Shown here one piece after another: positions 4,367 through 14,894 of a stretch of DNA of 37,681 nt. The stretch spans positions 1 to 37,681 of the forward strand of contig CALKDH010000001.1 in NCBI GenBank assembly GCA_938086805.1, given 5' to 3'. A program made the translations under genes and the position numbers. Position 1 is the first letter of the stretch; every line of letters starts with the position of its first letter. Source of the stretch: an uncultured PS1 clade bacterium. Lineage in GTDB: Bacteria > Pseudomonadota > Gammaproteobacteria > PS1 > Pseudothioglobaceae. Below the pieces are notes generated by a model. The model made no database searches. It was given only the letters and a program-made list of their open reading frames with translations, and had not been told where the DNA came from.

Positions 4367-5539
4367 ATGAATTTACTCAAGATGACAGATTTAGATCTAA
4401 ACGGTAAGAGAGTCTTGATTAGACAAGATTTAAATGTTCCAATAAAAAACGGTGAAGTAACAAGTGATAAAAGAATTGTTGCCTCACTTCCAACTATTCT
4501 CCATGCATCGAAAGCTGGAGCCAAAGTAATGATTACATCACATCTTGGTAGGCCAAATGCAGGCGAGTTTGAAGAAAAATTCTCGCTCCAACCAGTGGCT
4601 GATCATCTTTCAAAGCTGTTAGGACAAAAGGTGAGACTTGAGTCAAATTGGCTTGATGGCATTGAAATAGAGAGTGGTGATGTCGTTCTTTGTGAAAATG
4701 TAAGGTTTAATGAGGGTGAAAAAGAAAACGACGAAGCGCTATCAAAAAAAATGGCCTCCCTTTGTGACATTTGTGTTCAAGATGCTTTTGGAACTGCACA
4801 CAGGGCCCATGCTTCAACCTATGGCGTGACTGAGTTTGCACCAGTGTCCTGTGCGGGGCCACTTTTAGTGGGAGAGCTTGAAGCTCTTGGTAAGGCGCTT
4901 GATAACCCTAAGAGGCCAATGGTTGCGGTAGTTGGAGGTTCAAAAGTTTCAACAAAACTAACAGTTTTGGATGCACTTTCAAAGGTCGTTGATCAGCTTG
5001 TTGTGGGGGGCGGTATTGCAAATACTTTTATTGCCGCTCAAGGCAATAGTGTTGGCCAATCACTTTGTGAGCATGATCTTATTCCAACAGCACAGTCATT
5101 AATGGAGCATTGTCAAATACCTATTCCTGGGGATGTTGTTTGTGGCAAAGAGTTCTCTGAATTTGCAACTGCTGAAACTAAAAATTCGGGTTCAGTGGCA
5201 CCAGATGATATGATTTTTGATATTGGTCCAAATTCAACTTCTGAGCTTTGTGAGATTATGCGAAGTGCGGGAACAATCGTTTGGAATGGCCCTGTCGGTG
5301 TTTTTGAATTCGATCAGTTTTCAAGGGGGACTGAGGATATGGCACGAGCTATTGCAGACTCTGATGCCTTTTCAATTGCAGGTGGGGGCGATACCTTGGC
5401 TGCAGTAGATAAATTTAATATTGAAGATAAGATATCTTATATTTCTACTGGGGGCGGGGCATTCTTGGAGTTCCTTGAGGGAAAAAAACTTCCAGTTGTT
5501 GAGATTCTAGAGAGCAGAATGCAATCATCCGATGATTAG
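4367..5539 (+). CDS. pgk: Phosphoglycerate kinase
   Basis: [40 protein letters not shown]. Start at ATG 4367 preferred over the listed TTG at 4355 because GAGTTGGAG sits just upstream. Confidence 0.96.
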
Positions 5540-11431: not shown

Positions 11432-12355
11432 ATGACTATTCATGATGCTCCAAGAATAATCAAGGTTGATGACTTTTCTATTGGTCAAAGACTTGATAAT
11501 TATTTAATTAAGCAACTTAAAGGAGTCCCTAAATCGAGAATATATCGCATTATAAGAAAAGGCGAGGTAAGAGTTAACAAGGGTAGAAAAAAAGCTGATT
11601 ATAAACTTAAAGCTGAAGATTTAATTCGCATACCACCAATTAGAACTTCAACCGAAAAGGTTATTAGTCCTTCACAAGGCCTAATAAAGTCTCTCGAGAA
11701 TGCAGTCCTTTATGAGGACAAAGGGTTGTTAATTATTAATAAAAGTCATGGGATGTCAGTCCATGGCGGCAGTGGGATAAGTGTTGGCATAATTGAAGCA
11801 TTGAAGTCACAATACAATGAACCAATAGAGCTTGTTCACAGGCTCGATCGTGCGACGTCTGGATGTTTGATTCTTGCAAAAAAAAGATCAGTCCTGAAAT
11901 CATTACACTCACAGTTGGTTAATCATCAATTGGAAAAACGATATACGGCACTTGTTAAAGATACATGGAGCAAAAAAAGACACACTATTGATGCCCCTAT
12001 ATATCAAAACTCAAGGTACAGTGTTATTGATTCAAAAGGAAAGGACTCTCTAAGTCACTTTCATCCCATTAAAAACTTTGAACTAGGTGAGTTTAATGCT
12101 TCACTTGTAGAGGTATTGATAGAGACTGGCAGGACACATCAAATTCGTGTTCATGCAAAGTTTGCTGGGCATCCAGTTGCGCAAGATAATAAGTATGGCG
12201 ATGGAGCCTTTGATCAGTTTATGAAAAAGAAAGGTCTAAATCGTTTGTTTTTGCATGCGAAGACACTAACTTTTACAAACCCATTGACAAATGAAATTCA
12301 GAAAGTAACTGCACCATTACCAACTGATTTAGAGACATTTTTAAAGAAGCTATGA
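11432..12355 (+). CDS. rluC: RluA-family 23S rRNA pseudouridine synthase (RluC-like)
   Basis: N-terminal S4-like domain; LVHRLDRATSGCLILAKKR, ETGRTHQIRVHAKFAGHPVAQDNKYGD. Confidence 0.9.
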   Translation: MTIHDAPRIIKVDDFSIGQRLDNYLIKQLKGVPKSRIYRIIRKGEVRVNKGRKKADYKLKAEDLIRIPPIRTSTEKVISPSQGLIKSLENAVLYEDKGLLIINKSHGMSVHGGSGISVGIIEALKSQYNEPIELVHRLDRATSGCLILAKKRSVLKSLHSQLVNHQLEKRYTALVKDTWSKKRHTIDAPIYQNSRYSVIDSKGKDSLSHFHPIKNFELGEFNASLVEVLIETGRTHQIRVHAKFAGHPVAQDNKYGDGAFDQFMKKKGLNRLFLHAKTLTFTNPLTNEIQKVTAPLPTDLETFLKKL

Positions 12356-13194
12356 ATTCCTACATTCGATTAATGAGATTAAATAGGCCTATTGGCTCAT
12401 TTTTGCTTTTATGGCCAACTTATTGGGCACTATTCCTGAGTGCTGATGGTTGGCCAGATATAGATTTGTTAATTATATTTTCATTGGGAGTGATTGTAAT
12501 GAGAAGTGCGGGATGTGTAATCAATGATTATGCAGATCGAGATATTGATAAACACATTAAAAGAACACAAAACAGACCCATAACATCAGGTGAGATCTCA
12601 TCAAGATCGGCATTAATATTATTTGTAATACTATTGCTGGTGGCCCTTATTCTAGTTTTACAAACAAATCTATTAACAATTCAATTGTCTTTGATAGCAG
12701 CTGGACTGGCTACGATTTACCCCTTTACTAAAAGATGGACAAATCTGCCACAACTGGTTTTGGGGGCGGCATTTGGAATGAGTGTTCCAATGGCATTTGC
12801 TGCTCAAACTGGAACTATAACCTTAGAAGCAGGACTTATTTTTTTGGCATCCTTAGTTTGGACTTTGATTTATGATACTTTGTATGCAATGGCTGATCGA
12901 GATGAGGATTTAAAAATTGGTTTAAAGTCAACTGCAATTCTCTTTAAAAGTTATGATCATGTGGTTATTACCATCCTGCAAGTAGTACTTATTTTGCTAT
13001 TTGTTGGAATAGGAAATTCCTTTAATTTAGGTCAAATTTTCTATTTTTCGCTAATTATTATTGCTTGTTTGATGATTTATCATCAATTTCTAATGAAAAA
13101 ACAGCAAAATGAGCAATATTTCAAGGCATTTATTCATAACAATTACATTGGTATGACTGCTTTTGCGGGGATTTTCTTTTCTGTGGCAATTTAG
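12352..13194 (+). CDS. ubiA: 4-hydroxybenzoate polyprenyltransferase
   Basis: RPIGSFLLLWPTYWALFLS, NDYADRDIDKHIKRTQNRPITSG, YDTLYAMADRDEDLKIGLKSTA. Confidence 0.94.
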   Translation: MNSYIRLMRLNRPIGSFLLLWPTYWALFLSADGWPDIDLLIIFSLGVIVMRSAGCVINDYADRDIDKHIKRTQNRPITSGEISSRSALILFVILLLVALILVLQTNLLTIQLSLIAAGLATIYPFTKRWTNLPQLVLGAAFGMSVPMAFAAQTGTITLEAGLIFLASLVWTLIYDTLYAMADRDEDLKIGLKSTAILFKSYDHVVITILQVVLILLFVGIGNSFNLGQIFYFSLIIIACLMIYHQFLMKKQQNEQYFKAFIHNNYIGMTAFAGIFFSVAI

Positions 13195-13279: not shown

Positions 13280-13306
13280 TTGACACTCAGTTTTCCTTAC
13301 TATAAA
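13280..13306 (+). promoter_or_regulatory. Sigma70-type promoter of small protein gene, copy 1
   Basis: TTGACA (13280-13285), 15-bp spacer, TATAAA (13301-13306); same layout as copy 2. Confidence 0.7.
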
Positions 13307-13315
13307 AAGTGCACC

Positions 13316-13335
13316 AATCGGCAAAGATGCCGGTT
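13316..13335 (+). promoter_or_regulatory. 5' leader stem-loop, copy 1
   Basis: AATCGGCA-AAGA-TGCCGGTT, 8-bp stem; located at the predicted 5' end of the transcript. Confidence 0.65.
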
Positions 13336-13361
13336 ATCTTTATAATTAATGGAGAGAAAAT

Positions 13362-13577
13362 ATGTTAAGTAATGTAACTGGTTGGATAAAAAAATTAACA
13401 GAAGCAGGCGTCGGTCTTGTTGGACTTGCAATTGTTGTTCAAGTAATATTTGGTTCAAGCGTAGCATTCCTACCTGGTGATGTTATCGCTAATCTAATGG
13501 GTATTATTGGCTCACTTGGTGCTGCTGGCTTAGTTGGGTTAGTCACAGCTGGATTGTTATACCAAATCCTCAAGTAA
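13362..13577 (+). CDS. Small hydrophobic protein, paralog 1 (71 aa, two predicted hydrophobic helices)
   Basis: GGAGAG RBS 6 nt before ATG; own promoter, leader and terminator; conserved with the neighbouring paralog (…GWxKKLTEAGV…VVQxIFG…AFLPGDV…LVGLVxAGLxYxI). Confidence 0.88.
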   Translation: MLSNVTGWIKKLTEAGVGLVGLAIVVQVIFGSSVAFLPGDVIANLMGIIGSLGAAGLVGLVTAGLLYQILK

Positions 13578-13598
13578 ACATTTCATATTAACTCAATG

Positions 13599-13626
13599 AA
13601 AAACCCGCCGTGAGGCGGGTTTTTTT
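13599..13626 (+). terminator. Intrinsic terminator of paralog 1
   Basis: AAAAACCCGCC-GTGA-GGCGGGTTTTTTT. Confidence 0.93.
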
Positions 13627-13714
13627 ATGCATCATGTAATATTTCTATTATTGTGCTAAGTACTATTAATGCAACATATTGAGTGTTTTTTCCCAAAAAT
13701 GCAATTTAGAAAAC

Positions 13715-13741
13715 TTGACATAATTAAATTGATACTATAAA
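13715..13741 (+). promoter_or_regulatory. Sigma70-type promoter of small protein gene, copy 2
   Basis: TTGACA (13715-13720), 15-bp spacer, TATAAA (13736-13741). Confidence 0.7.
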
Positions 13742-13750
13742 AAGTTCATC

Positions 13751-13770
13751 AATCGGTAGTGATGCTGGTT
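13751..13770 (+). promoter_or_regulatory. 5' leader stem-loop, copy 2
   Basis: AATCGGTA-GTGA-TGCTGGTT; same 8-bp stem with two G-C pairs replaced by G-U pairs. Confidence 0.65.
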
Positions 13771-13795
13771 ATCTTTAAACAAATGGAGAGAAGAT

Positions 13796-14014
13796 ATGTT
13801 AGACAACGTAATTGGTTGGGCAAAAAAATTGACCGAAGCAGGAGTTGCTGTAATTGCACTTGCTGTGGTTGTTCAAATAATCTTTGGCGGTGATGCTGCA
13901 TTCCTTCCTGGCGATGTAACTGGCAGCCTGATTAATATTATCAGTGAACTTGGCTCTGCTAACTTGGTAGGTCTTGTTGCTGCGGGGTTAATATACAAAA
14001 TCTTTACTAGGTAA
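13796..14014 (+). CDS. Small hydrophobic protein, paralog 2 (72 aa)
   Basis: About 45 of 71 aligned residues identical to paralog 1 (counted by eye); GGAGAG RBS; own promoter and terminator. Confidence 0.88.
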   Translation: MLDNVIGWAKKLTEAGVAVIALAVVVQIIFGGDAAFLPGDVTGSLINIISELGSANLVGLVAAGLIYKIFTR

Positions 14015-14033
14015 CATAGCATGTTAACTCAAT

Positions 14034-14061
14034 AAAAAACCCGCCTTTGAGCGGGTTTTTT
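14034..14061. terminator. Intrinsic terminator of paralog 2, probably bidirectional (also serves convergent dapD)
   Basis: AAAAAACCCGC-CTTTGA-GCGGGTTTTTTA; A-run and T-run on both flanks between convergent genes. Confidence 0.9.
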
Positions 14062-14078
14062 ATTGACTCAAAGTTTTT

Positions 14079-14894
14079 TTATATTCCACGGAGTAGTTCA
14101 TTAATGCCAACTTTTGATCGTGTTTTGGCATCAACCTGTTTCACTATCACTGCGCAATAAAGTGAATAACTTCCATCAGGGGATGGAAGGTTTCCAGAAA
14201 CAACAACTGATCCAGCTGGAATTCGACCATAACTCACTTCCCCAGTCATCCTATTGTAAATTTTAGTAGATTGGCCAATATATACGCCCATTGAAATGAC
14301 TGCCCCTTCTTCAACAATGACACCTTCAACTACTTCAGACCTTGCACCAATGAAACAATCGTCTTCAATTATCGTTGGACTGGCTTGCAAGGGCTCTAAA
14401 ACCCCACCAATGCCAACACCTCCTGATAGATGAACATTTTTACCTATTTGGGCGCAAGATCCGACTGTAGCCCATGTATCAACCATTGTTCCAGAGTCAA
14501 CATATGCACCAATATTCACATACGATGGCATTAAAACAGTATTAGGGGCTATATATGAGCCTCGTCTTGCGGTTGCTGGAGGGACGACTCTTACTCCAGA
14601 TGCTTGAAATTCCTTTTCAGTTGTATTGGCATATTTAGAGGGAACTTTATCAAAGTACTGTGTAAAACCTGAAGGCATAGGGGTGTTATCAGCAAGTCTA
14701 AAAGAGAGAAGAACAGCCTTTTTGAGCCATTCATTAACATGCCAATCTCCCACACCTTTTTGTTCTGCAACTCTAGCTTTTCCTGAGTCCAGTAAATGTA
14801 TTGCTTCATTAACAGCATCCTTAACTTCAGGTTTAGCTGTAGCTGGAGTTAAGTGATTCCTATCCTCGAAAGCTGATTCAATAATATCTTTCAT
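14079..14894 (-). CDS. dapD: 2,3,4,5-tetrahydropyridine-2,6-dicarboxylate N-succinyltransferase
   Basis: [71 protein letters not shown]. Confidence 0.96.

Follow-up and report, generated by a model that had tools for sequence, protein, structure and literature searches.

The window (the whole 37,681-nucleotide stretch of DNA analysed here) carries two adjacent monocistronic units that encode paralogous small membrane proteins not covered by any family model in the libraries searched. It belongs to a Thioglobaceae bacterium of the SUP05/Pseudothioglobus type, the closest named loci being Candidatus Thioglobus, Pseudothioglobus and SUP05 records. One large marine order retains the protein family in almost every high-quality genome and much of another order has it too, while hundreds of virus contigs carry it; the family has neither a model in those libraries nor a known function. 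An earlier note, made from the letters of the window, had missed the conservation across another streamlined marine order and the carriage by hundreds of viral contigs, which are the more important findings. The reading we favour, tentatively and at somewhat less than an even chance, is that free-living marine gammaproteobacteria have in this product an inner-membrane protein that assembles with itself, and that phages supply it anew late in infection; our restraint reflects that assembly, abundance and role are inferred.

Both units (13280–13626 and 13715–14062) follow the same order of TTGACA, −10 element, 5′ hairpin leader, Shine–Dalgarno sequence, ORF and intrinsic terminator (Table 1), and the likeness between them extends beyond the ORF to the promoter, leader, Shine–Dalgarno sequence and terminator. 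The earlier note had described a tandem-duplicated complete transcription unit in which each copy has its own promoter and terminator, a short structured leader, a GGAGAG ribosome-binding site and an ORF of 71–72 aa, with the two proteins about 63% identical. This description was borne out, the measured protein identity of copies A and B being 63–64%. Two of the signals needed revision. TTGACA and TATAAA are literally present with the 15-bp spacer that had been proposed, but the −10 conserved in relatives is an overlapping TAAAAA lying 16–17 bp from TTGACA, and the element is therefore better read as having a normal 17-bp spacer; the unit 1 promoter is kept in all aligned Thioglobaceae units. 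Strong CCCGCC/GGCGGG terminators had been given for both copies, and both folds are indeed strong, but the sequence is exact only in unit 1, unit 2 having CCCGC/GCGGG and a 6-nt loop. A generic terminator scan picked up neither, probably because A–T pairs lengthen the stem into the T run. About 57 distinct Thioglobaceae units share the identical layout, and this recurrence, together with the low dN/dS of both genes (0.20 and 0.15), argues that the two-unit layout is not due to chance.

Table 1. Features of the two units and their neighbours (window positions), and two-piece tmRNA genes of marine phage loci (positions within each locus).
Feature	Position	Strand	Details or basis
Unit 1 promoter	13280..13308	+	TTGACA 13280-13285, 17 bp, TAAAAA 13303-13308; overlapping TATAAA 13301-13306
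Unit 1 5′ leader hairpin	13316..13335	+	AATCGGCA-AAGA-TGCCGGTT; covariation over 29 leaders
Unit 1 Shine–Dalgarno GGAGAG	13352..13357	+	predicted pairing with upstream UCUUUAU
Copy A, 71-aa small membrane protein	13362..13577	+	ORF, dN/dS, tree
Unit 1 intrinsic terminator	13604..13626	+	CCCGCC-GTGA-GGCGGG then T7; -19.5 kcal/mol, z -6.35
Unit 2 promoter	13715..13743	+	TTGACA 13715-13720, 17 bp, TAAAAA 13738-13743
Unit 2 5′ leader hairpin	13751..13770	+	AATCGGTA-GTGA-TGCTGGTT
Unit 2 Shine–Dalgarno GGAGAG	13785..13790	+	sequence
Copy B, 72-aa small membrane protein	13796..14014	+	ORF, AlphaFold2 helices, dN/dS, tree
Unit 2 intrinsic terminator	14040..14062	+	CCCGC-CTTTGA-GCGGG then T7; -16.7 kcal/mol, z -5.90
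Upstream neighbour, ubiA-like prenyltransferase	12352..13194	+	conserved synteny; name inferred from sequence
Downstream convergent neighbour, dapD-like succinyltransferase	14079..14894	-	conserved synteny; name inferred from sequence
tmRNA, L106	5372..5681		
tmRNA, L132	5318..5635		
tmRNA, L142	5320..5645		
tmRNA, L081	3237..3554		
tmRNA, L110	4105..4437		
tmRNA, L137	4092..4424		
tmRNA, L138	5492..5802		
tmRNA, L155	4588..4908		
tmRNA, L157	1653..1973		

The leader hairpin begins near the expected transcript start in both units. Across 29 distinct leaders, 88% of cells are paired and both sides change in six of eight pairs; the covariation score is 0.461 against 0.292 for shuffled alignments, and none of 500 shuffles reaches the observed value. 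Occlusion of the Shine–Dalgarno sequence by the leader is predicted to be strong in unit 1; as this pairing is not kept in all relatives, the idea of an occluding switch was dropped. The promoter-leader motif occurs nowhere else in the window's own genome, and an Rfam search of the window gave no match. The high expression proposed in the earlier note found no support in codon usage: the codon adaptation indices of the two copies (0.655 and 0.596) lie within those of ordinary window genes and at or below those of ribosomal genes (0.60–0.78), so that any case for high expression would have to come from the anatomy of promoter, leader and terminator.

Both genes are under purifying selection: among orthologues within the genus, the median dN/dS is 0.20 (copy A) and 0.15 (copy B) rather than the value near 1 that the earlier note had named as evidence against its proposal. 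An AlphaFold2 monomer built from 63 diverse sequences reached a pLDDT of 87.9 and a pTM of 0.61; the diverse sequences cured the low confidence of a poor model (pLDDT 62.6) based on 16 sequences only. For copy B the predicted helices span residues 2–30, 41–54 and 57–71. The earlier description of a "two-helix" protein holds in part, as the model has three helices; the view that the product is small, hydrophobic and probably a membrane protein was supported. Residues 15–30 and 57–71 are strongly hydrophobic, and residues 2–14 are amphipathic. In host sequences both termini are positive and the 31–41 loop is negative, a charge pattern that by the positive-inside rule would make the protein an inner-membrane hairpin of N-in/C-in topology. 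In phage sequences the N-terminus has hardly any net positive charge, and the topology call is weaker for phage copies for that reason. T13, F30, G31, F36, G39, G53 and L60 are near-invariant over 172 sequences, and no His or Cys ligand is conserved in the family alignments.

Neither protein matched a family in Pfam, NCBIfam or PHROGs or in a sequence search of the PDB, and Foldseek of the model against the PDB and BFVD likewise gave no match, in keeping with the earlier failure to assign a family; literature searches found no description of this small protein family. The weak best matches were likewise to short hydrophobic helical proteins: the T4SS pilin family PF18895 scored 7.4 bits (E 6.4) against a Pfam curated cut-off of 26.6 bits, and the match to the inovirus major coat protein PH75 (E = 0.24) vanished with wider profiles, so that membership was rejected in both cases. 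Phylum-level matches in G588, G622 and G777 were partial and were taken as chance, the one in G622 being a short match over a different small ORF.

The survey of copy number and synteny that the earlier note had proposed was run on Thioglobaceae. The gene is present in 49 of 83 genomes and, wherever it and its neighbours could be read, always lies between ubiA and dapD; the locus is vertically inherited within this family. Only the window's genus has the tandem pair, and one genome (G008) has three copies, whereas other genera have a single copy; in the tree, one duplication falls at the base of the tandem clade. Several lineages have lost the gene or show it in decay, which argues that it is not essential everywhere. 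Between ubiA and dapD, only the terminator remains in L168, the L066 gene is a pseudogene that lacks a promoter, and the L065 copy has an internal deletion, while genus g5 and most of g8, which to judge from genome size and contiguity are probably symbionts, lack the gene.

When the family profile was run on an even sample of gammaproteobacterial genomes across the class, relatives were found in only four other genomes, two of which fall in one order with genomes of 0.7–1.8 Mb. This second streamlined marine order, which is probably SAR86 to judge from its genome size, family structure and marine streamlining, has the family in 164 of 199 genomes and in 37 of the 40 high-quality ones. With few exceptions, two genes (A and B) lie side by side. 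The gap between them (median 46 nt) contains a hairpin of −15.9 kcal/mol or stronger in all 41 distinct gaps, followed in some by a U run; among L178–L237 these hairpins are 9–14 bp long and their sequence varies between genera. The data suggest that a conserved element between the two cistrons sets the A:B stoichiometry, and a hairpin of this strength would suit unequal amounts, with A as the major and B as the minor product. The puf operon has a strong intercistronic hairpin between two small hydrophobic genes, for which unequal amounts are expected, and the SAR86-like arrangement may work in a similar way, although the proteins are unrelated and the arrangement was observed in the SAR86-like order and not in the window, whose copies each have their own promoter.

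Relatives are also encoded on at least 423 IMG/VR contigs. A SAR86-type query confirmed 94 viral contigs, with further types among them, and the contigs that carry the gene reach 179 kb. The contigs examined carry genes of T4-like phages (tail tube, RNR, 5′ exonuclease, QueE, cytidyltransferase and Hsp20), and the family copies sit among clear phage structural and replication genes, usually as a separate unit whose position differs among phage lineages. Of 52 distinct phage copies, 16 have a strict T4 late promoter no more than 180 nt upstream, where about 2 would be expected from background density. In many phage leaders a hairpin that covaries and has a YGNRAH loop precedes AAACTA; in the 20 aligned leaders, from which rows off the ungapped register were omitted, the stem is 100% paired and the covariation score is 0.817 against 0.259 shuffled. 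Vertically inherited homologues exist in plausible hosts, and the tree (about 76 columns, unrooted) places phage proteins in at least three spots: beside single-copy Thioglobaceae, beside Thioglobaceae of the LPGDV type, and within the SAR86-like A clade. As the alignment is short and the tree unrooted, the number and direction of transfers should be taken as approximate. A whole-phage HMM scan of the cultured pelagiphage HTVC008M found no family member, and a blastn match to it proved to be a 20-bp chance match within a 1,371-bp (456-aa) gene; a tblastn search of INPHARED gave no match even at E = 10 and is uninformative, as the query was probably masked by the low-complexity filter.

On the membrane-protein reading that we favour, each unit would yield an integral inner-membrane protein of roughly 72 residues, in which the amphipathic N-terminal helix would run into transmembrane helix 1, the F-x-x-G-D loop would be periplasmic, and a short semi-amphipathic helix and an LGxxG break would lead into transmembrane helix 2, placing both termini in the cytoplasm. 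The protein may self-assemble, into homo-oligomers in genomes with a single gene and into mixed A/B assemblies in those with both paralogues, and the assembly would be plentiful in the cytoplasmic membrane, where it would have a structural or protective part that free-living, streamlined marine gammaproteobacteria need. T4-like phages of such bacteria would have taken up host copies, probably on three or more occasions, and would express them, with late promoters in many lineages, such that the membrane function is maintained in the infected cell. This reading best fits the combination of core status in free-living marine cells, paired paralogues, a small hydrophobic hairpin and phage carriage. 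A broader proposal, possible rather than probable in our judgement, is that the new family forms a shared host-phage physiological module on which SUP05/Thioglobaceae and SAR86-like free-living cells depend, with T4-like phages carrying copies to keep the host membrane working late.

Other roles must be weighed against this reading. Class II phage holins such as pinholin S21 have 65–95 aa, two hydrophobic segments, an N-in/C-in topology and late expression; the family protein falls in this size range with two predicted transmembrane segments and, in silico, the same topology. It may thus be a small membrane pore or channel, conducting ions or solutes in hosts and acting in phages as a class II holin-like late lysis or permeabilising protein. 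The 72-aa length, two hydrophobic segments, N-in/C-in charges, short helix and glycine break resemble small pore proteins, and late promoters in phages would suit this role, but we consider it unlikely: hosts have a core, vertically inherited chromosomal gene with a constitutive-looking promoter, no holin family was matched in sequence (best holin match E = 0.52), and the phage neighbours that could be named (tail tube, RNR, exonuclease, QueE and Hsp20) are not lysis genes. No endolysin was found among ten phage neighbours checked against PHROGs, and in these loci no lysis gene was recognised next to the family gene. We think it improbable that the protein instead mediates phage-host interaction by blocking or modifying DNA entry of superinfecting phages, through host copies and through phage copies directed against rivals, with host duplications tracking phage pressure, since inheritance is vertical and nearly universal at a single conserved locus rather than in a patchy defence island, many phage copies have late rather than early promoters, and selection is purifying with no sign of an arms race; its occurrence in both hosts and phages, the duplication and triplication in one genus, and the loss or decay in some Thioglobaceae, among them probable symbionts in genera with small genomes, would nevertheless accord with such a role.

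Cyanophages carry the host membrane genes hli and psbA, and by the same logic the protein might be a membrane subunit of one particular host complex (respiratory, rhodopsin or transport), or a factor in its assembly, that phages keep to sustain energy metabolism. The loss pattern and phage carriage resemble those of host-derived phage genes that sustain host physiology, and the conserved T13, F30, G31, F36, G39, G53 and L60 suggest specific packing; there is, however, no consistent partner gene, as neighbours differ among Thioglobaceae, the SAR86-like order and phages, and the alignments lack a conserved His or Cys ligand, so that this role also seems quite doubtful. Very improbable, and already disfavoured, is a bacteriocin-, type I toxin- or microcin-like peptide, or an ORF that is a by-product of a regulatory RNA. 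A small hydrophobic product, tandem copies and a structured leader would fit, but no leader peptide is evident, neither an immunity or exporter partner nor an antisense gene was noticed in the surroundings, conservation is too wide, and dN/dS values of 0.15–0.20 show that the protein itself is selected.

By analogy, a host membrane protein on marine T4-like phages would be similar in kind to cyanophage hli and psbA: in both cases marine phages of the T4 type have a small host membrane protein that they apparently took up on more than one occasion. The family differs in that its sequence is unrelated and lacks pigment ligands, its hosts are streamlined gammaproteobacteria, and it has no known function. 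Should the family serve to sustain the inner membrane, it would be the counterpart of these genes outside photosynthesis, and phage takeover of SUP05 and SAR86 would become testable; as the protein is small and encoded by a single gene, tests of expression, localisation and assembly or conductance are feasible in E. coli.

Several phage loci show further elements near the family gene. The phage leader element described above, with its YGNRAH loop on a 4-bp fully covarying stem and then AAACTA and a U-rich stretch before the Shine–Dalgarno sequence, is found for example in L106 (about 4930–5000), L132, L120 and L126, with no Rfam match at the gathering threshold. In one phage lineage (L079, 5340–5540, and relatives), a membrane-like protein of 63–66 aa (GKIWPILNWLSLNI), which has no PHROG match, adjoins the family gene. 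A permuted, two-piece tmRNA lies close downstream of the small gene in many marine phage loci (Table 1); nothing scored above the cut-off for tmRNA in the incomplete host genome of the window. Marine phages (Melnitz, pelagimyophages) are known to have two-piece tmRNA (PMC9004378).

Relatives also occur in other gammaproteobacteria. A distant adjacent pair in an unrelated 2.3 Mb genome (L074, 1208–1432 and 1480–1704, minus strand), close to a pilT/pilU-like ATPase, forms a very long branch in the tree, and a 2.7 Mb genome encodes a 183-aa member with a long lysine/threonine-rich C-terminal tail (L075, 1150–1701, minus strand).
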